The translations under genes and the position numbers were made by a program. From Candidatus Saccharimonadota bacterium (GTDB taxonomy: Bacteria; Patescibacteriota; Saccharimonadia; CAILAD01; BJGX01): a DNA stretch of 59,019 bases. The first letter of the stretch is position 1. Each line of letters starts with the position of its first letter. Of this stretch, positions 17,875-51,229 are shown piece after piece. The stretch is from contig BJGX01000006.1 of assembly GCA_014191035.1 (NCBI GenBank), forward strand, positions 1 through 59,019, written 5' to 3'. A model generated the notes under the pieces. It was not told the origin of the DNA. It saw nothing but the letters and a program-made list of their open reading frames with translations, and searched no databases.

Positions 17875-18405
17875 TTACTCTGGCTTTAAGTTAGCTTCGC
17901 CTGGTTCCCAGTCAACTGGGCACAAACCGCCCGTTTGCAATGCTTTTACAACACGCATAGTTTCCTCAACACTTCTGCCGACATTTCCGTCTGATATAAC
18001 AACATATCTAAGGTTTCCATCAGGGTCGATTATAAATGTTCCTCGCTCGGCAGTTCCATCGCTTTCATTCAGCACTCCATAATCCCTAGAAAGTGTATGA
18101 TTTGTGTCTGCTAAAATTGGGAATTCTACATCTTTTAGATCTCGTTCAAACCAAGCTTTGTGTGAGAAAACACTATCTGTGCTTGCAGCCACAACAACCG
18201 TATTAAGTTTTTCGAAGTCTTTATTCATCTTTGCAAATCCTTCAATCTCGGTTGGGCAAACAAAGGTAAAGTCCCTTGGATAAAAGAATAAAATAACCCA
18301 CTTTCCTTTATAGTCTTCTAGGCTGATTTCGGTAAAATCGTCTTTAATACCTTTTTGGTAGGCTGGCTGTTTAAATGCTGGTGCTGGTTGATTAAGTTTT
18401 AACAT
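17875..18405 (-). CDS. 2-Cys peroxiredoxin (AhpC/Prx family)
   Basis: FYPRDFTFVCPTEI peroxidatic Cys; QTGGLCPVDWEPG resolving Cys. Confidence 0.93.
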   Translation of the reverse strand: MLKLNQPAPAFKQPAYQKGIKDDFTEISLEDYKGKWVILFFYPRDFTFVCPTEIEGFAKMNKDFEKLNTVVVAASTDSVFSHKAWFERDLKDVEFPILADTNHTLSRDYGVLNESDGTAERGTFIIDPDGNLRYVVISDGNVGRSVEETMRVVKALQTGGLCPVDWEPGEANLKPE

Positions 18406-18416
18406 GTTTATCTCCT

Positions 18417-19001
18417 TTAATTACTGATATTTTCAATTCTATTATTTACGACGCTCCAGTCAATGACTTTTATGAATGCCGATACATAATCCTTGCGGGT
18501 GGTAGCATAATCTATAAAATACGCATGTTCATAAACATCCATAATGAGAAGAGGAATTGAGTTCCAAACCCCGCCCTGATTATGAACGTCGCAAAGATAA
18601 GTGTCGATTTCTTTTGTGTCTCTGTCGTAAGCCAATATGACCCAGCCTCTGGAGCATAGGCCAGTGGCTGCAAATTGCTCAGCCCAGGCATCGACACTAC
18701 CCCATTTAGCTTCTATCATTTCTTTTATTTTACCATTGCATTCTGTGGCTTCTGGGGTCATGTTATCAAAATACATTTCATGAAGCTTTGCACCATTAAA
18801 GGCAAAGCTTTTTTCGAGCTGCAGCTCTCTTAAATCAGAATAAGTTACATTTCCGCCTTCATTAGACGTAGATTTAAGTTTTTCAGTTATTTCATTATAT
18901 TTTTTCACATAGCCAGCATACAAAACATCATGGTGTTCATTTAGTTGTTTTTCTGATATGCCTGGCAGTTCTTTATACTTGAGTGGTTTTGCTTCTAACA
19001 T
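18417..19001 (-). CDS. Superoxide dismutase (Fe/Mn family)
   Basis: LNEHHDVLYAGYVKKYNEI, GAKLHEMYFDNM, LLIMDVYEHAYFIDY metal ligands. Confidence 0.88.
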   Translation of the reverse strand: MLEAKPLKYKELPGISEKQLNEHHDVLYAGYVKKYNEITEKLKSTSNEGGNVTYSDLRELQLEKSFAFNGAKLHEMYFDNMTPEATECNGKIKEMIEAKWGSVDAWAEQFAATGLCSRGWVILAYDRDTKEIDTYLCDVHNQGGVWNSIPLLIMDVYEHAYFIDYATTRKDYVSAFIKVIDWSVVNNRIENISN

Positions 19002-19032: not shown

Positions 19033-19599
19033 TCAAAACTTATAAATGTTTATGGGTTCAATTTTTTTATAAATTTTTATTCCTTCAAAACTAAATGCAT
19101 ACGAAGCAACCAATGCACCGCTCTTAAGCTGGTATTTGAACTTATCATAAAGCTTTTGCATGAATGGTGCTGCAGAAAATACAAAAACCAAATCGGCCTT
19201 CGACAAATCTGCGGACCAATAATTCCCCCAAACGACCTTAGATTTGGGGTATTTCCGAAGTCTAATCTTAGATATAAGATACAAAAAGGGGTTTAGTTCA
19301 TAACCTATCGGCTTCAATCCTGCTTTGGCTGCAGCTAGTAAAACTTTTCCGTCGCCACTACCCAAATCCACAAAAACAGAGCCCTTTTTAAGATTTAGAA
19401 CTGAAAAAAGCTGTGAGGCATCATTTTTTTTACTGGGCACATATGGAGCACCAACAAAAACTATCGCCCCAAAAGAAACAAAAAGCAGGATAAGTATTAT
19501 CCAGATAATTATCATAAAAACCTTACTTGTTTTCTTCGAGCCATTTTTTGGCTTCTGGTACGGTCTTAAGTGGTTGAATCTTTGGCCAAACAGCGGCAA
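19033..19599 (-). CDS. Class I SAM-dependent methyltransferase-like membrane protein
   Basis: VFVDLGSGDGKVLLAAAKAG motif I; N-terminal TM. Confidence 0.75.
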   Translation of the reverse strand: MPLFGQRFNHLRPYQKPKNGSKKTSKVFMIIIWIILILLFVSFGAIVFVGAPYVPSKKNDASQLFSVLNLKKGSVFVDLGSGDGKVLLAAAKAGLKPIGYELNPFLYLISKIRLRKYPKSKVVWGNYWSADLSKADLVFVFSAAPFMQKLYDKFKYQLKSGALVASYAFSFEGIKIYKKIEPINIYKF

Positions 19600-19990
19600 T
19601 TTTTAGATCTGGACCAATAATTACGGCCGACCGTTGGGTGCCAAAAAACTTTCGCCCATACATACTGCGCTCTTGCCAAGCACCATAAGCCTCTATCATT
19701 TCGTGTTCTGTATCTGCCAAAATATCAAAAGGCAATTCGTGCTTTATTTTGAATTTTGTATGGCTAGCGGCATCGTCTTTGCTAACGCCAATAACATCCA
19801 TACCCATTTCTTGAAGCTCTTCGAAATTATCCCGTATATCACAGGCTTGCTTGGTGCAACCTGGAGTTTCGTCTTTAGGGTAAAAATAAATTAAAGTGGT
19901 TTTGCCTTTTAGTTCAGATAGTTCGTGTGTTTTACCATCTTGGTCTTGAAGTTTAAATTTTGGGGCGTTATCGCCTACCTGTAGTGACAT
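19523..19990 (-). CDS. bcp: Thioredoxin-dependent thiol peroxidase (Bcp/PrxQ)
   Basis: VGDNAPKFKLQDQDGK, YFYPKDETPGCTKQACDIRDN. Confidence 0.93.
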   Translation of the reverse strand: MSLQVGDNAPKFKLQDQDGKTHELSELKGKTTLIYFYPKDETPGCTKQACDIRDNFEELQEMGMDVIGVSKDDAASHTKFKIKHELPFDILADTEHEMIEAYGAWQERSMYGRKFFGTQRSAVIIGPDLKIAAVWPKIQPLKTVPEAKKWLEENK

Positions 19991-45169: not shown

Positions 45170-46009
45170 CTAACTAGCCAATGACTTCTTAATTTTAACT
45201 GAAGTAAAGATTCTTATTTTTTGAGATTTGCTCAAACTAATTCTGCCATTTACTAAATCTTGAACTGGCGTTTTAGACATTTGATTGTTTAGGGCTGAAA
45301 AATATTTAAAAGCTAACTCTACACCAAATCGACTTGAGACTGGTAATTTTCTTAGAGCAGGCTTTGCTATTGATAAGTCCTTCTTGATGTCTGTAATTAT
45401 TTCTTTTTTGTCGAGCTCACTAAAGTGGCGAATATTTTTGCCTGGAAAGTATAGGCGTCCAAGCCCTGAAGAATCGGCGTTTAAATCTCTTAAAAAATTT
45501 ATCTTTTGAAAGGCCGCCCCTAAAGCTTTTGCGGCAGGTAAAAGAGAATTGTAGTTTTTCTTATTGCCATTAACAAAAACCATTAAACACATAAGTCCTA
45601 CTACTTCCGCAGAGCCATAAATATAAGTTTTATACTCTTCCAAAGAGTAAGATTTCTTCTTGATATCCATCTTCATACTTCTTAAAAAAGCCTCTACAAG
45701 ATCTAAAGGAATATCGTACTTACGAACAACCGATGCAAAGCTGTGCACTATAGGATTTACACTAAATCCACTCTTAATCGCTCTTTTATAGTCATTGGAC
45801 AGCTCATTGATGTACATTTCCATTCCTCTTGGCCGCCAGCTATCTACTATCTCATCTGCAATTCTAACAAAGCCATAAATTGCATATATCGAATCTGCCA
45901 CTTCAGGACTTAAAAGACTAGTGGCCGAAGAAAAAGAACTCGAATATGTCTCAGTAATATCTTTGCTGACTTTCAAACTTATTTTTTCATAGAGCTGAAT
46001 ATTTAACAT
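45170..46009 (-). CDS. crtB: Phytoene synthase
   Basis: YSSSFSSATSLLSPEVADSIYAIYGFVRIADEIVD; NFLRDLNADSSGLGRLYFP. Confidence 0.92.
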   Translation of the reverse strand: MLNIQLYEKISLKVSKDITETYSSSFSSATSLLSPEVADSIYAIYGFVRIADEIVDSWRPRGMEMYINELSNDYKRAIKSGFSVNPIVHSFASVVRKYDIPLDLVEAFLRSMKMDIKKKSYSLEEYKTYIYGSAEVVGLMCLMVFVNGNKKNYNSLLPAAKALGAAFQKINFLRDLNADSSGLGRLYFPGKNIRHFSELDKKEIITDIKKDLSIAKPALRKLPVSSRFGVELAFKYFSALNNQMSKTPVQDLVNGRISLSKSQKIRIFTSVKIKKSLAS

Positions 46010-46010
46010 T

Positions 46011-47108
46011 TTATTTCTTCCTTACAACGCAGTAATGAGAAAACGCAATTAAGATTGATTTTGTATCTTTATCTATTTGCATCTCATCAATAATCCCGAG
46101 GGCCTTTTGCAGATGATCTTCCGCAGCCACCACTGCTTTAGCTTGAGCCCCACATTCTTTAAGTATTGAGCGCACTAACTTAACGTCATCTGCGGAAATG
46201 TGTTCTTTACCCAACCTAGTGCTTATAGCCTTCCATTCCAGCGGAGAGGCCAGCTTCTTAGCATAGTACATTAATAAAGTCTGTTTTCCTTCACGAATAT
46301 CTGATCCAACTGGCTTGCCGGTTTGTCTTGAAGAGCCAAACATACCTAATAGGTCGTCGGCTATCTGAAAAGCCTTACCTAATTCGGCCCCAAAATCAGC
46401 GAAGGTGTTCATTAGTTTTTTGTCCCCTTCGGCAGCGATTACGCCAAGCTGCAAGGGTGAGGTTACAGTGTATTGTGCAGTTTTATAATAATTAACTTTT
46501 TCTATTTTGTTTAAATTTAAATCTCCTCTTATGCTAGACATTACATCGAGCTGCTGGCCAGCACCTGTTTCAAATAGAACTTTTTGGAAATGCGCCATCA
46601 TTTCAAAAATAACCTCTTTTTCGAAATCAAGCTTTGTTAGTACCTCAAAAGTAAAAAATTCATTTAGCTCCCCCGCCAATATAGCTATTGCTTCGGCGGT
46701 GTGCCTGGCATTATTTTCAGGTAATTGCTTTTTGAATCTTTTGAAATAAACGCCTGTCATATTAGCGCCACCATAGCGAGTCATGTCTCCATCCATAACA
46801 TCATCGTGTATTAAGACAAAGTTATGAAAAATCTCTAAAGACAGGGAGGCGTCTAGGGCCGCCTCAAAATCTGTTCCTCCTGCCGCCTTATATCCCAAGA
46901 GCATTAATGTTGGCCTTAGTCTTTTGCCACCTCTTTGAATAAACTTTTTCATATCCAATAAAAGTTTTTCGTAGATGGGGTCAATTTTTTTAGCCTCAGC
47001 AATCTTAAGGTTAAAAAACTTCTCTAGCCTTTTATCTATCTCTTTGGATACGTAGTTGTTGAGCTCTGTTAGCTCACGTAAATTTTTAATTTCGTTATTA
47101 TTTTGCAT
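46011..47108 (-). CDS. crtE: Polyprenyl diphosphate synthase, probable GGPP synthase
   Basis: FARM LIHDDVMDGD, SARM FQIADDLLGMFG, RGGKRLRPTLMLL. Confidence 0.9.
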   Translation of the reverse strand: MQNNNEIKNLRELTELNNYVSKEIDKRLEKFFNLKIAEAKKIDPIYEKLLLDMKKFIQRGGKRLRPTLMLLGYKAAGGTDFEAALDASLSLEIFHNFVLIHDDVMDGDMTRYGGANMTGVYFKRFKKQLPENNARHTAEAIAILAGELNEFFTFEVLTKLDFEKEVIFEMMAHFQKVLFETGAGQQLDVMSSIRGDLNLNKIEKVNYYKTAQYTVTSPLQLGVIAAEGDKKLMNTFADFGAELGKAFQIADDLLGMFGSSRQTGKPVGSDIREGKQTLLMYYAKKLASPLEWKAISTRLGKEHISADDVKLVRSILKECGAQAKAVVAAEDHLQKALGIIDEMQIDKDTKSILIAFSHYCVVRKK

Positions 47109-48594
47109 CGCTTAATATTCTCTCGGTAACTAACTTGGCACTCAAAGTTACCATAGGTATTCCTCCACCTGGGTAAGTGCTTGCGCCTACAAAGTAAAGA
47201 TTCTTTATATCCTTGCTTTTGTTATGGGGCCTAAAATATCCGGACTGAAAAAAGTGATGACTGAGCCCAAAAGCGGAACCTACGTGTAGGTTATATTTCT
47301 TTTTAAAATCTTCAGGTGTAAATACTGATTCGACCTTAATTTTCTTCTCTATATCTAAATCAAACTCTGTCTTAAGTCTTGAAATAACCTGCTTTTTAAG
47401 TCTTTTAATGCCTTTTTCCCAATTAACTTTTGAGTCAAGATTTGGAACAGGCACTAGGACATAAAATACGCTCTTTCCTTTTGGAGCCAATGTTGGATCA
47501 GTCTTTGTGGGAATATAAGTGTAAAAAGAAGGGTCTTTGGGTAGTTTTTTCTTATGAAATATTTCTTCTAAATTACCCTTAAAATCTTTACATAAATACA
47601 CATTATGATGCAGCATCTGTTCGCATGGGTCATCGACACCCCAATAAAATAGTAGAGCAGAACTTGCTTGCTTGTAATTTTCTAATTTCTGGTTAGGTGA
47701 TGAGGGTCGATGTTTTTCGGCGATTAGTTCTTTTTGTGCATAGACCAAGTCTGCGTTAGCAACTATGGTATTTGCGCTAACTACTCTACCCTTTTTTAAT
47801 CTTACGCCAACTGCTTTTTTGTCTTTAATAATTATTTCCTCTACAGATGAAGAGGTTAAAATTTCACCACCCAAATCCTTTACGAGCTTTTCCATGGCCA
47901 TCGAAAGAGAGTACATGCCTCCTTTTGGATACCAAATACCCAGCCCCGTCTCCATATAGCTAACCATACTGTAGACCGCGGGGGCTTCATGTGGACTAAC
48001 TCCCAAATACATACTCTGGAAGCTAAATAGCTGCCTTAATCTTTCATCTTTAAAATAATAAGCCACAAAATCATACAACTTACTCAAACCCCTTCTCTTA
48101 AGAAGTTGAGCACCGCTTACAGGATTAATAAAGTCTGTTATACGTCTAAAGTTTCTATCTATAAAACTTTTTCTTGAAATCCTATACATTGCCGAAACAT
48201 CAGAGAAAAACTTAAAAAACTGCTCTGGTCCCTTTGGATCAAACTTTTCTAGTTCTGAGCTAAACTTTGGAAGATTACTGCTTACTGTAATTTTAGTTTT
48301 GTCTGCAAAGGCGACTCTGTAGTTTGGTTCCAATTGAAGAAGGGTGATGTAATCATCGAAATTTTTGCCACAATATTTGAATGTGTCATATAGAACATCT
48401 GTCATCATCAGTAGAGTTGGGCCCATATCGAAAGTGTAGCCTTTCTTTTCAATGCGGTTGGCTCTACCGCCCACTTTGTCTTCTTTTTCTATAACGGTAA
48501 CTTTGTACCCATTCTTAAGAAGTCTCGCAGCAGTACAAAGACCACCAATGCCACCTCCGACAATTATTGCAGATTTTTGTGAATTATTTTCCAT
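47098..48594 (-). CDS. crtI: Phytoene desaturase
   Basis: SAIIVGGGIGGLCTAARLLKNGYKVTVIEKEDKVGGRA; YFVGASTYPGGGIPMVTLSAKLVTERIL; start placed at MENNSQ (48594); alternative 48612. Confidence 0.93.
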   Translation of the reverse strand: MENNSQKSAIIVGGGIGGLCTAARLLKNGYKVTVIEKEDKVGGRANRIEKKGYTFDMGPTLLMMTDVLYDTFKYCGKNFDDYITLLQLEPNYRVAFADKTKITVSSNLPKFSSELEKFDPKGPEQFFKFFSDVSAMYRISRKSFIDRNFRRITDFINPVSGAQLLKRRGLSKLYDFVAYYFKDERLRQLFSFQSMYLGVSPHEAPAVYSMVSYMETGLGIWYPKGGMYSLSMAMEKLVKDLGGEILTSSSVEEIIIKDKKAVGVRLKKGRVVSANTIVANADLVYAQKELIAEKHRPSSPNQKLENYKQASSALLFYWGVDDPCEQMLHHNVYLCKDFKGNLEEIFHKKKLPKDPSFYTYIPTKTDPTLAPKGKSVFYVLVPVPNLDSKVNWEKGIKRLKKQVISRLKTEFDLDIEKKIKVESVFTPEDFKKKYNLHVGSAFGLSHHFFQSGYFRPHNKSKDIKNLYFVGASTYPGGGIPMVTLSAKLVTERILSDAK

Positions 48595-48607
48595 AGATTT
48601 ATAAACT

Positions 48608-48617
48608 ATCATATAAT
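48608..48617. promoter_or_regulatory. Overlapping divergent -10 elements (crtI TATGAT 48608-48613 on minus; cyclase TATAAT 48612-48617 on plus)
   Basis: Direct motif reading in the 29-bp crtI/cyclase intergenic region. Confidence 0.5.
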
Positions 48618-48623
48618 AATACT

Positions 48624-48938
48624 GTGAAATACACCTATTTGACCATACTTATTTTTAGCATAGTCGGCATGACGCTTTTAGATTATAAATATAAGCTGTC
48701 ATTTTTCAAGTACCCAAGGGCTGCTTTCAAGAGTACCCTAATAGTAATGTCCTTGCTTTTATTTGCCGATATTGTAGGTATAAATTGGAAAATATTTTCT
48801 ACTAATACTCGATACGTGTCAGGACTATTTATTGGTAGCGAAAATCTCCCTATTGAAGAATTCTTCTTTCTATTTATGTTGTGCTATTTTACTCTGAACA
48901 TTTATCAGATTTTAAAAAGAAAGTATCTAGATGTTTAA
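48624..48938 (+). CDS. Heterodimeric lycopene cyclase subunit (CrtYc/CrtYe/CrtYg-like)
   Basis: 104 aa, three TMs, GSENLPIEEFFFLFM. Confidence 0.82.
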   Translation: MKYTYLTILIFSIVGMTLLDYKYKLSFFKYPRAAFKSTLIVMSLLLFADIVGINWKIFSTNTRYVSGLFIGSENLPIEEFFFLFMLCYFTLNIYQILKRKYLDV

Positions 48939-49254
48939 GTATAGTTTTTTAATAATCATGCTTTTATTCATTGCTTTTTTTGTGGGCTATATTTATAAAC
49001 TAAAATTAAACCTTAATAAAGCCTGGCGCTACACCGCGCTCATAAGTTTTGTTGCTATGATTATTTTTAATACCTACCTTACTGCCCTTCCGATAGTGGT
49101 GTATAATGTTAACTCAATTCTGGGAATTAAAATATTAACATTTCCTATTGAAGATATAGGATATTTAATAATGGTATTGCTACTGCTCCCGCCATTGTTC
49201 GAAAAGTTATCAGATGAAAAAAGAGACCACCCACAAAAACCGACCAAACATTAA
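48931..49254 (+). CDS. Heterodimeric lycopene cyclase subunit (CrtYd/CrtYf/CrtYh-like)
   Basis: 107 aa, three TMs, ILTFPIEDIGYLIMVLLLL; adjacent to partner subunit. Confidence 0.82.
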   Translation: MFKYSFLIIMLLFIAFFVGYIYKLKLNLNKAWRYTALISFVAMIIFNTYLTALPIVVYNVNSILGIKILTFPIEDIGYLIMVLLLLPPLFEKLSDEKRDHPQKPTKH

Positions 49255-51229
49255 AGAGGTGCTTGCCACTTCAAGGCCATTTAGCTGGCTAAATACGGCT
49301 GTCCCCTTCTTTGTTGGTTTTGTAATCTCATTTGGAGGTATTAATCTAGCGTGCATTCTGGCAACAGCCTACTTTACATTCTTCTATAATTATTTGATGT
49401 ATGGTGTAAATGATATATTTGACTACGAATCAGATATAAAAAACCCTCGCAAAAACTCAATTGAGGGGGGGCTGGTCGACAAGAGCAAACACAAGTTCAT
49501 GTTCTATTTAATTGTGTTCTCAAATTTACCTTTTGTGTTATACCTTTTGTGGAGTGGTAATCTTCAAAGCAATATAACACTTATAGCAATTATATTTTTT
49601 GCTTTCAGCTATTCTGCCAAGCCATTTCGTTTTAAGGAAGTGCCAATCCTTGATTCCATAAACTCCAGCCTTCACTTCGTCTTGCCATTGGTCTTTGGTG
49701 TTTTCTATGCCGGAAGTACAGCCTTACCGTGGCCTGCAGTGGTAGCATTTTTCTTCTGGGGCGCCGCATCCCAAGCCTTAGGAGCTATTCCAGATATAAA
49801 ACCTGATAGAGCCGCAAATATAAACTCTATAGCAACAAAATTAGGAGCGAAGTTTACCAATAGTTATTCTTTATTGCTCTATACTTTATGCTGCATTATA
49901 GTGGCTGTTTTTTATTACCCATGGGGACTTTTAGCCGCTGTGATTCTTGCGGTATACCCATTAAATGTCTTGTTTTTTAGAAAATATAAGTCTGATGCCA
50001 AAAGCCCAGAGTATCAGAGAGCCTGGAAAAATTTTATTTGGCTGAATTTGATAGTTGGCTTTTGGCTAAGCCAGCTTTTGCTTTTTATATATGACCCTTT
50101 TGGATTAGGGCTAAAGCGAGTTGGTTTTTTTGCAGGATTTTTAGTAACTTTTGGCTTAGCACAATTGATGCTTATAGTTTATAATTACCAAAAATTTTCT
50201 AGACCCAAGTCAAAGAGATTGGGCGACTTGCCGCATATAGACATAATAATGCATTCAATAGGAAATAAAGATAATATAGCCTCAACCTTCTTGGCATTGA
50301 TTGGTCAAAACTATCCAAATTTTGACATATATTATGCAAATCTAGACCGCAACCCTTCTGCTCAAAAAATAGCTGAAAGCTATCAAGATCCAAGGCTACA
50401 CATTATTGACATTCCAAAGCCCGAAAAAGGATGGAGCCTACAAGCTTGGGCGAGCCAGAGACTATTGAAAAAAACTAAATCCAACCTAGTTGTTTTAATT
50501 GGTGCTGATACGTTACTTTTACCAAACACGTTATCTGTTATAGCCAGTATGTTTGATTCAAAAAAACTAGAATTTGCATCCCTTCTGCCAGCCGATCAAA
50601 ACAAATCCTTCTGGCAACAATTAATTATGAGCCAAGAACATTATTTTCTTTTTGGTCTATACCCATCGGCCTATATAACTAACAAAAAGCCACTTCTGGC
50701 CACAGCATTCAGTAGTCTTATTGCCTTTAGAAAGAGTTCAATTAAAAAAATTGGCGACTTTGAAATTGTCAAAAAAAGTCCACTTGAAGATTTGGATATA
50801 GCAAACAAAGCCAAGCAAAATGGCTTGGTATCTGAGTTTTATTCAGCTAGTGATTTAGCTGTTAGCCAAAACCGCTCTGAGCTTGGCCAATTAAGAGAAT
50901 ATAATGAACAAAGACTCTATCCTAGTCTACATTTTAATATGCCCGCCAGTATAACGATTGTTTCTTTGGGAATATTTATAACAATTTTTCCGGTTGTTTT
51001 GCTTTGTTCTTTACTGCTTTTAGGAATTTATGAAGGAACCCTGCTACTTGCTATTGGTTGTGGCATACTCTTATTAAACAGGTTCATAATTATGTCAAAA
51101 TCCAAGCAAAGTATTACTAGCACGCTGCTATACCCGATTGGTAGCCTTATATTAATTCTTGAAATATTTTCTTCGATGCTAAATTACGAAATGAAGAAGC
51201 CTCGCTGGGAAAAGCGCAGGGAGATATAA
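49214..51229 (+). CDS. UbiA-family prenyltransferase (lycopene elongase-like) fused to GT2 glycosyltransferase
   Basis: UbiA: GVNDIFDYESDIKNPRKNSIEGG and IPDIKPDRAANINSIATKLGA; GT2 from about 50230: HIDIIMHSIGNKDN, VVLIGADTLLLPNT, SPLEDLDIANKAKQNG; C-terminal TMs. Confidence 0.82.
   Translation: MKKETTHKNRPNIKEVLATSRPFSWLNTAVPFFVGFVISFGGINLACILATAYFTFFYNYLMYGVNDIFDYESDIKNPRKNSIEGGLVDKSKHKFMFYLIVFSNLPFVLYLLWSGNLQSNITLIAIIFFAFSYSAKPFRFKEVPILDSINSSLHFVLPLVFGVFYAGSTALPWPAVVAFFFWGAASQALGAIPDIKPDRAANINSIATKLGAKFTNSYSLLLYTLCCIIVAVFYYPWGLLAAVILAVYPLNVLFFRKYKSDAKSPEYQRAWKNFIWLNLIVGFWLSQLLLFIYDPFGLGLKRVGFFAGFLVTFGLAQLMLIVYNYQKFSRPKSKRLGDLPHIDIIMHSIGNKDNIASTFLALIGQNYPNFDIYYANLDRNPSAQKIAESYQDPRLHIIDIPKPEKGWSLQAWASQRLLKKTKSNLVVLIGADTLLLPNTLSVIASMFDSKKLEFASLLPADQNKSFWQQLIMSQEHYFLFGLYPSAYITNKKPLLATAFSSLIAFRKSSIKKIGDFEIVKKSPLEDLDIANKAKQNGLVSEFYSASDLAVSQNRSELGQLREYNEQRLYPSLHFNMPASITIVSLGIFITIFPVVLLCSLLLLGIYEGTLLLAIGCGILLLNRFIIMSKSKQSITSTLLYPIGSLILILEIFSSMLNYEMKKPRWEKRREI

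Follow-up and report, generated by a model that had tools for sequence, protein, structure and literature searches.

A candidate cyclic C50 carotenoid gene cluster with a UbiA-glycosyltransferase fusion in Saccharimonadia

Bacteria of the Candidate Phyla Radiation (CPR) are known for stripped-down lipid metabolism. What would a six-gene carotenoid cluster in such a genome produce, and from which precursors? The question is raised by a 59,019-nucleotide contig of a Candidatus Saccharimonadota bacterium (BJGX01000006.1, assembly GCA_014191035.1; the whole stretch is called the window here), in which crtB, crtE and crtI lie on the minus strand, opposite plus-strand genes for two small carotenoid cyclase subunits, A and B, and for a UbiA prenyltransferase fused to a family 2 glycosyltransferase (GT2). 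An original prediction, made from the letters of the window, had read these genes as a pathway to a cyclic, glycosylated C50 carotenoid in a CPR-like genome. The CPR placement was correct: the genome (684,728 bp, 93.6% complete, with the window as its contig C6) falls in the class Saccharimonadia and groups with named Candidatus Saccharibacteria genomes. Judged from gene families, motifs and synteny, the cluster is very probably a pathway native to Saccharimonadia that leads to a cyclic C50 carotenoid; glycosylation of the product is another matter.

Enzymes of the cluster and the predicted product

Protein families were assigned by hidden Markov model (HMM) scans against curated cut-offs, and all six genes scored above theirs (Table 1). 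The six open reading frames (ORFs) were all open, and coordinates, HMMs and motifs alike confirmed the divergent arrangement first described. Both CrtB motifs (DEIVD and RDLNAD) were intact, and crtB was the sole SQS_PSY gene in the genome. CrtE carried HDDVMD as its first aspartate-rich motif; its product is probably geranylgeranyl diphosphate (GGPP). CrtI contained GGGIGG and matched the phytoene dehydrogenase 4dgk (phmmer E 1.5e-89). By family and motif, the cluster supplies a phytoene synthase, a phytoene desaturase and a probable GGPP synthase. The PIEE motif of subunit A and the PIED motif of subunit B fell in columns conserved over about 29 sequences of each subunit (as PxEE and PxED), the pattern of a two-subunit CarR-type cyclase.

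The C50 assignment depends on the UbiA half of the fusion, which had the family and both Asp-rich motifs (NDIFDYESD and PDIKPDR) of a lycopene elongase, intact. Its best model, NF009608, is also that of the elongase in a C50 cluster on an Arthrobacter plasmid (L033; 469 bits). The cut-off of this model was passed by one of the 14 control genomes, for which the obvious candidate is Corynebacterium glutamicum, a decaprenoxanthin maker. Knock-outs of crtEb and crtYeYf in C. glutamicum identified a lycopene elongase and a C50 cyclase, with decaprenoxanthin formed via flavuxanthin (PMC3598387). Models for menaquinone (MenA) and chlorophyll-synthase prenyltransferases gave at most 35 bits with the window protein. 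By score, the UbiA domain thus sided with the lycopene elongases rather than with prenyltransferases of menaquinone or heme synthesis, an outcome that passes the refutation test set by the original prediction. The actinobacterial cyclic-C50 logic originally proposed held at the sequence level in elongase type, Asp motifs and cyclase pair. The genome encoded no second UbiA of elongase type. An AlphaFold model of the fusion (mean pLDDT, the predicted local distance difference test score, 84) showed a UbiA bundle, then a GT-A domain, then membrane helices. Foldseek matched the UbiA half to a UbiA homolog bound to dimethylallyl diphosphate (DMAPP), with a template-modelling score of 0.65-0.67 by target; a PDB sequence search with the fusion found no relative.

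The following account of the chemistry, the ring type and the function is inferred. CrtE would build GGPP and CrtB would join two GGPP into phytoene, which CrtI would desaturate to lycopene. The UbiA half would add one C5 unit from DMAPP to each lycopene end (flavuxanthin-type), and the two small cyclase subunits would close the end rings, to give a decaprenoxanthin-, sarcinaxanthin- or C.p.450-type pigment. Such a pigment may stiffen the membrane and protect it from oxidation; it would also be a visible, mass-spectrometry-ready marker for uncultured Saccharibacteria.

The cluster lies far beyond chance, because related genomes repeat its gene order with the ORFs intact. Elongase-type UbiA was found in 38 of 295 genomes of the class, 14 times fused to GT2 and 24 times standalone; all 14 fusions belonged to the order of the window, and in 11 of these 14 order members the fusion had intact UbiA motifs and lay beside crt genes. 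CrtI passed its cut-off in 39 of the 295, and the two occurred together in 34 (Fisher P = 9e-35, uncorrected for genome relatedness), including all 24 genomes with standalone UbiA. Other families carried a co-linear crtE-crtB-crtI-cycA-cycB-UbiA operon, and the divergent form occurred in the order of the window and in one genome of family f11 (G013). The co-linear operons share class and pathway with the window and likewise come without isopentenyl diphosphate (IPP) synthesis; they differ in their actinobacterial-like CrtI, their standalone UbiA and their layout. In one scan of 85,462 genomes, the top 80 relatives kept for the UbiA domain all lay beside carotenoid genes (80/80), in a crt operon where the contig was long enough, and nearly all came from Actinomycetota or Saccharibacteria; plasmid records held few elongase relatives. 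Among these 80, the sole fusion outside the class was in a metagenome-assembled genome of Candidatus Dormiibacterota (L115:3663-6117), directly 3' of two cyclase genes. This fusion (664 aa) has the architecture of the window protein and the same gene order with the cyclases (cycA-cycB-UbiA-GT2), but the two are 31% identical over the fusion and differ in their GT2 motif losses, and the small Dormiibacterota contig, unlike the window, shows no crtI, crtE or crtB.

Actinobacterial decaprenoxanthin and sarcinaxanthin clusters (crtE-B-I-Ye/g-Yf/h-Eb/E2) have all six functions in common with the window, along with the cyclase-cyclase-elongase order, the PxEE/PxED subunits and an elongase in the same NCBIfam model. 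Theirs are co-linear, whereas the window is divergent, has its elongase fused to GT2, comes without a clustered idi or a route to IPP, and has a CrtI from another clade (approximately unbiased [AU] test, p 5e-5). CrtI of the window's order and of families f11 and f16 formed a clade apart from that of Actinobacteria and other Saccharimonadia; joint grouping of the two sets was rejected (AU p = 4.7e-5) on a quick tree, with the CrtI group named after the first tree had been seen. The pathway was therefore probably assembled from parts of different origin. The UbiA domain fits the actinobacterial elongase model, and this CrtI is of a different type from that in actinobacterial C50 clusters. In the UbiA tree, which has several long branches and an uncertain deeper order, the f1 and f3 fusions formed a supported clade (95) outside Actinobacteria. 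Recent acquisition from a modern actinobacterial host is not favoured, given this position of the UbiA clade and the separate CrtI clade.

The cluster had also been called unexpected in CPR bacteria, a description that needs qualifying: crtI and the elongase co-occur in the 34 Saccharimonadia genomes above, and genes for bacterioruberin, a C50 carotenoid, were published for Patescibacteria in 2023 (PMC9948471). Those Lake Baikal Patescibacteria resemble the window in having C50 genes within the CPR (lyeJ, crtD, cruF) and differ in an acyclic product and a different elongase set; cyclase subunits were not reported for them. The cyclic C50 set, the UbiA-GT2 fusion, fusions persisting without the pathway, and the co-occurrence of such a pathway with missing IPP synthesis appear to be unreported in the open-access literature searched (subscription journals and preprints lay outside this scope).

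Source of the isoprenoid precursors

The genes of an IPP autotroph, namely IspH, or 3-hydroxy-3-methylglutaryl-CoA (HMG-CoA) reductase with GHMP kinases, were not found. No GHMP kinase was detected in the window genome by a search that detected its positive controls in 14 of 14 cases, and neither IspH nor HMG-CoA reductase was detected in any of the 13 genomes of the family (0/13 for each, with controls detected). Across the class, one of 295 genomes passed the cut-off for IspH and none (0/295) that for HMG-CoA reductase. Because of the absences in the family and in the window genome, the predicted carotenoid must be built on imported C5 units, in agreement with the earlier suggestion that precursors come from a host or from elsewhere in the genome. 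UppS was present in 13 of 13 family genomes; in the window genome, uppS lies in the order tsf-frr-uppS-rseP, with neither cdsA nor dxr between. The host or the surroundings would supply C5 units, or else short prenyl diphosphates or alcohols, a supply that undecaprenyl phosphate would already require. According to a freshwater survey, isoprenoid synthesis in CPR classes apart from Gracilibacteria seems to be limited to C10-C20 compounds, with C5 synthesis lacking (PMC9166423). At ten C5 units per pigment molecule, the demand of cells unable to make C5 would imply that isoprenoid precursors pass steadily from the host into the epibiont.

One possible C5 salvage route is suggested by another Saccharimonadia genome (G068), where a gene for isopentenyl phosphate kinase (L152:10457-11248; 137 bits, cut-off 120) and a NUDIX Idi-like gene (L152:9200-9772) lie beside a bacterioruberin-type set. 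Isopentenyl phosphate kinase was not found in the other stretches examined, and the window's own genome was not searched for it.

The glycosyltransferase half and the rival explanations

Is the product glycosylated, as the original prediction held? The predicted model (pLDDT 84) gives the second half of the fusion a GT-A fold with C-terminal membrane helices, and Foldseek matched it to GT2 enzymes. By sequence it resembles HpnB (70 bits), and the GT2 half of the Dormiibacterota homologue matches the carotenoid glycosyltransferase CruG (42 bits), both scores being far under the equivalog cut-offs. The fusions have the fold and the C-terminal W..R motif in common with CrtQ/HpnB/CruG-type enzymes, whereas several catalytic residues are missing. 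In an alignment of 15 fusions with GT2 proteins from other carotenoid clusters, none of the 15 retained either the first Asp of DXD or the Lys of GWxGK (Arg stands in place of the latter in the Dormiibacterota fusion). The subclade of the window and its four closest relatives had additionally lost the N/E motif and the Asp of DDgS. In the window protein itself DDgS reads NLDR, DXD reads GAD and the Lys of GWxGK is Gln, leaving incomplete the nucleotide-sugar site of an active GT2 carotenoid glycosyltransferase (DDgS Asp, DXD, GWxGK). With several active-site residues lost, a working glycosyltransferase in this lineage is doubtful. In favour of activity are the family resemblances, the survival of the final Asp of DXD and of the ED and W..R motifs, and the frequent glucosylation of actinobacterial C50 carotenoids (PMC3598387). 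Against these stand the losses common to all fusions, the further losses in the window's subclade and the low scores, and we regard a glycosylated cyclic C50 product as unlikely; of the terms in the original prediction, "glycosylated" is the one that fared poorly.

In this lineage the GT2 half probably does not work as a carotenoid glycosyltransferase and may be kept for another role, for example to bind lipids or to serve as a membrane scaffold. The fusion thus raises a question of its own, namely the task of a degenerate glycosyltransferase attached to a prenyltransferase, and two relatives bear on it. From G017 and G038 the genes crtB and crtI and those of the cyclases have been lost, and neither UbiA Asp motif is intact, yet both genomes keep a full-length fusion at the same syntenic place. 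Between the two genomes, dN/dS was 0.48 for the UbiA half and 0.11 for the GT2 half, with 12 versus 4 amino-acid differences (P = 0.019, on a small number of changes). Because constraint persists in spite of a dead UbiA and lost crt genes, the GT2 half seems to have a function that needs neither carotenoids nor a live UbiA. Taken together, these observations allow a tentative picture, to which we give somewhat less than even weight, of an epibiont with no precursor pathway that would be fed C5 units by its host and make a cyclic C50 membrane pigment, its elongase fused to a silenced glycosyltransferase with a second, pathway-independent role that outlives the pathway.

A rival reading, in which the fusion is mainly a membrane glycolipid or scaffold protein and its crt neighbourhood is incidental, draws on the same slow evolution of the GT2 half beside the faster UbiA half, and on G032, which has intact UbiA motifs and neither crtI nor crtB in a genome that is only 87% complete. 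It is improbable, since most of the order pairs the fusion with crt genes and intact UbiA motifs, and since the standalone homologues of other families invariably accompany crtI. In G006, crtI lies in several pieces with stops (L144:6846-7471, contig C9) beside intact crtE, crtB and fusion genes, as a result of either decay or assembly errors.

Several points weigh against the cyclic C50 pathway as proposed. The two or three relatives that keep the fusion without the pathway hint at a further role for the protein. With a CrtI of another clade, it is less than certain how many desaturations the enzyme performs. The completeness of the window genome allows for an odd missing gene, while the absences of IspH and HMG-CoA reductase hold across the family. 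Finally, cyclases of the CarR type can act on C40 ends too. Heterodimeric CarR-type cyclases are capable of forming C40 rings, and the product could accordingly be a cyclic C40 carotene, with UbiA doing something else. This is quite unlikely, slightly more so than an incidental neighbourhood, because UbiA is of lycopene-elongase type with both Asp motifs and adjoins the cyclases in nearly all genomes. No rhodopsin (PF01036) that would need C40-derived retinal was found, in a search that detected no positive control; Saccharibacteria rhodopsins have been described that rely on outside retinal (PMC9296517).

An acyclic C50 pathway of the bacterioruberin type, with an NF009516-type LyeJ, CrtD and CruF, is very improbable, for all that such a set is published for the Baikal bacteria (PMC9948471), that another exists in the same class, and that a part of one (LyeJ and CrtID) exists in the family member G010. 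Haloarchaeal and bacterioruberin-type prenyltransferases, and the second UbiA of G010, fit NF009516, with which the window UbiA scored 145 bits, under the cut-off of 205 and well below its score with NF009608. Cyclase subunits are encoded in the window, and the locus lacks CruF and CrtD; the pathway was rejected on the elongase model and locus gene content, CruF not having been searched genome-wide. The partial set of G010, which has the cyclic set too, comprises a LyeJ-like UbiA and CrtID (L138:4409-6852, contig C10), and the set of G068 a LyeJ-like UbiA, CrtID and CruF (L152:4810-7906, contig C9). Divergent CrtI-like oxidoreductases in G056 (L154:6966-8495) and G230 (L155:6797-8269) have neither elongase nor cyclases nearby.

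Contamination, in which a fragment from an actinobacterial host or elsewhere had been binned with a CPR genome, has in its favour that the pathway is typical of Actinobacteria, but it was rejected as next to impossible: the 59-kb contig carries Saccharimonadia housekeeping genes and the crt block at the same low G+C, the identical insertion point recurs in relatives, and the nusG, rplK and rplA flanks are conserved across the order.

Layout of the locus

Table 1. Features of the carotenoid locus, in positions of the window, with strand and supporting HMM score or motif.
Feature	Position	Strand	Evidence
crtB, phytoene synthase, 279 aa	45170..46009	-	PF00494 131.8 bits (cut-off 26)
crtE, short-chain prenyl diphosphate synthase, 365 aa	46011..47108	-	PF00348 170.7 bits (cut-off 27)
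crtI, phytoene desaturase, 504 aa	47098..48612	-	TIGR02734 515.6 bits (cut-off 238.1)
Candidate compact divergent promoter region	48600..48640		TATAAT at 48612-48617
Carotenoid cyclase subunit A, PIEE, 104 aa	48624..48938	+	TIGR03462 53.9 bits (cut-off 39.4)
Carotenoid cyclase subunit B, PIED, 107 aa	48931..49254	+	PF18916 44.6 bits (cut-off 27)
UbiA-GT2 fusion, 671 aa	49214..51229	+	two domain families in one ORF
UbiA domain of fusion (residues 1-300), lycopene elongase	49214..50113	+	NF009608 294.1 bits (cut-off 217)
GT2 domain and C-terminal membrane helices (residues 301-671), active site degenerate	50114..51229	+	PF00535 31.5 bits (cut-off 23.3)

The crt block adjoins nusG-, rplK- and rplA-like genes, and flanking ORFs of equal sizes were found in relatives across the order. 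The start codons of the divergent crtI and cyclase A genes are 11 bp apart, with TATAAT between them (window 48594-48624). Since the divergent starts are so close, the true start of crtI may be its second Met, at 48594. The spacing and the TATAAT also suggest leaderless or overlapping divergent transcripts; as a class, promoter matches were not above chance (28 found, 32.5 expected).

Elsewhere the window carries ordinary chromosomal genes for cell division, translation and replication, named from sequence. Two peroxiredoxin-like proteins and one superoxide dismutase-like protein, likewise named, are encoded at 17875-18405, 18417-19001 and 19523-19990; they would fit a life exposed to oxygen, where a carotenoid would be of use.

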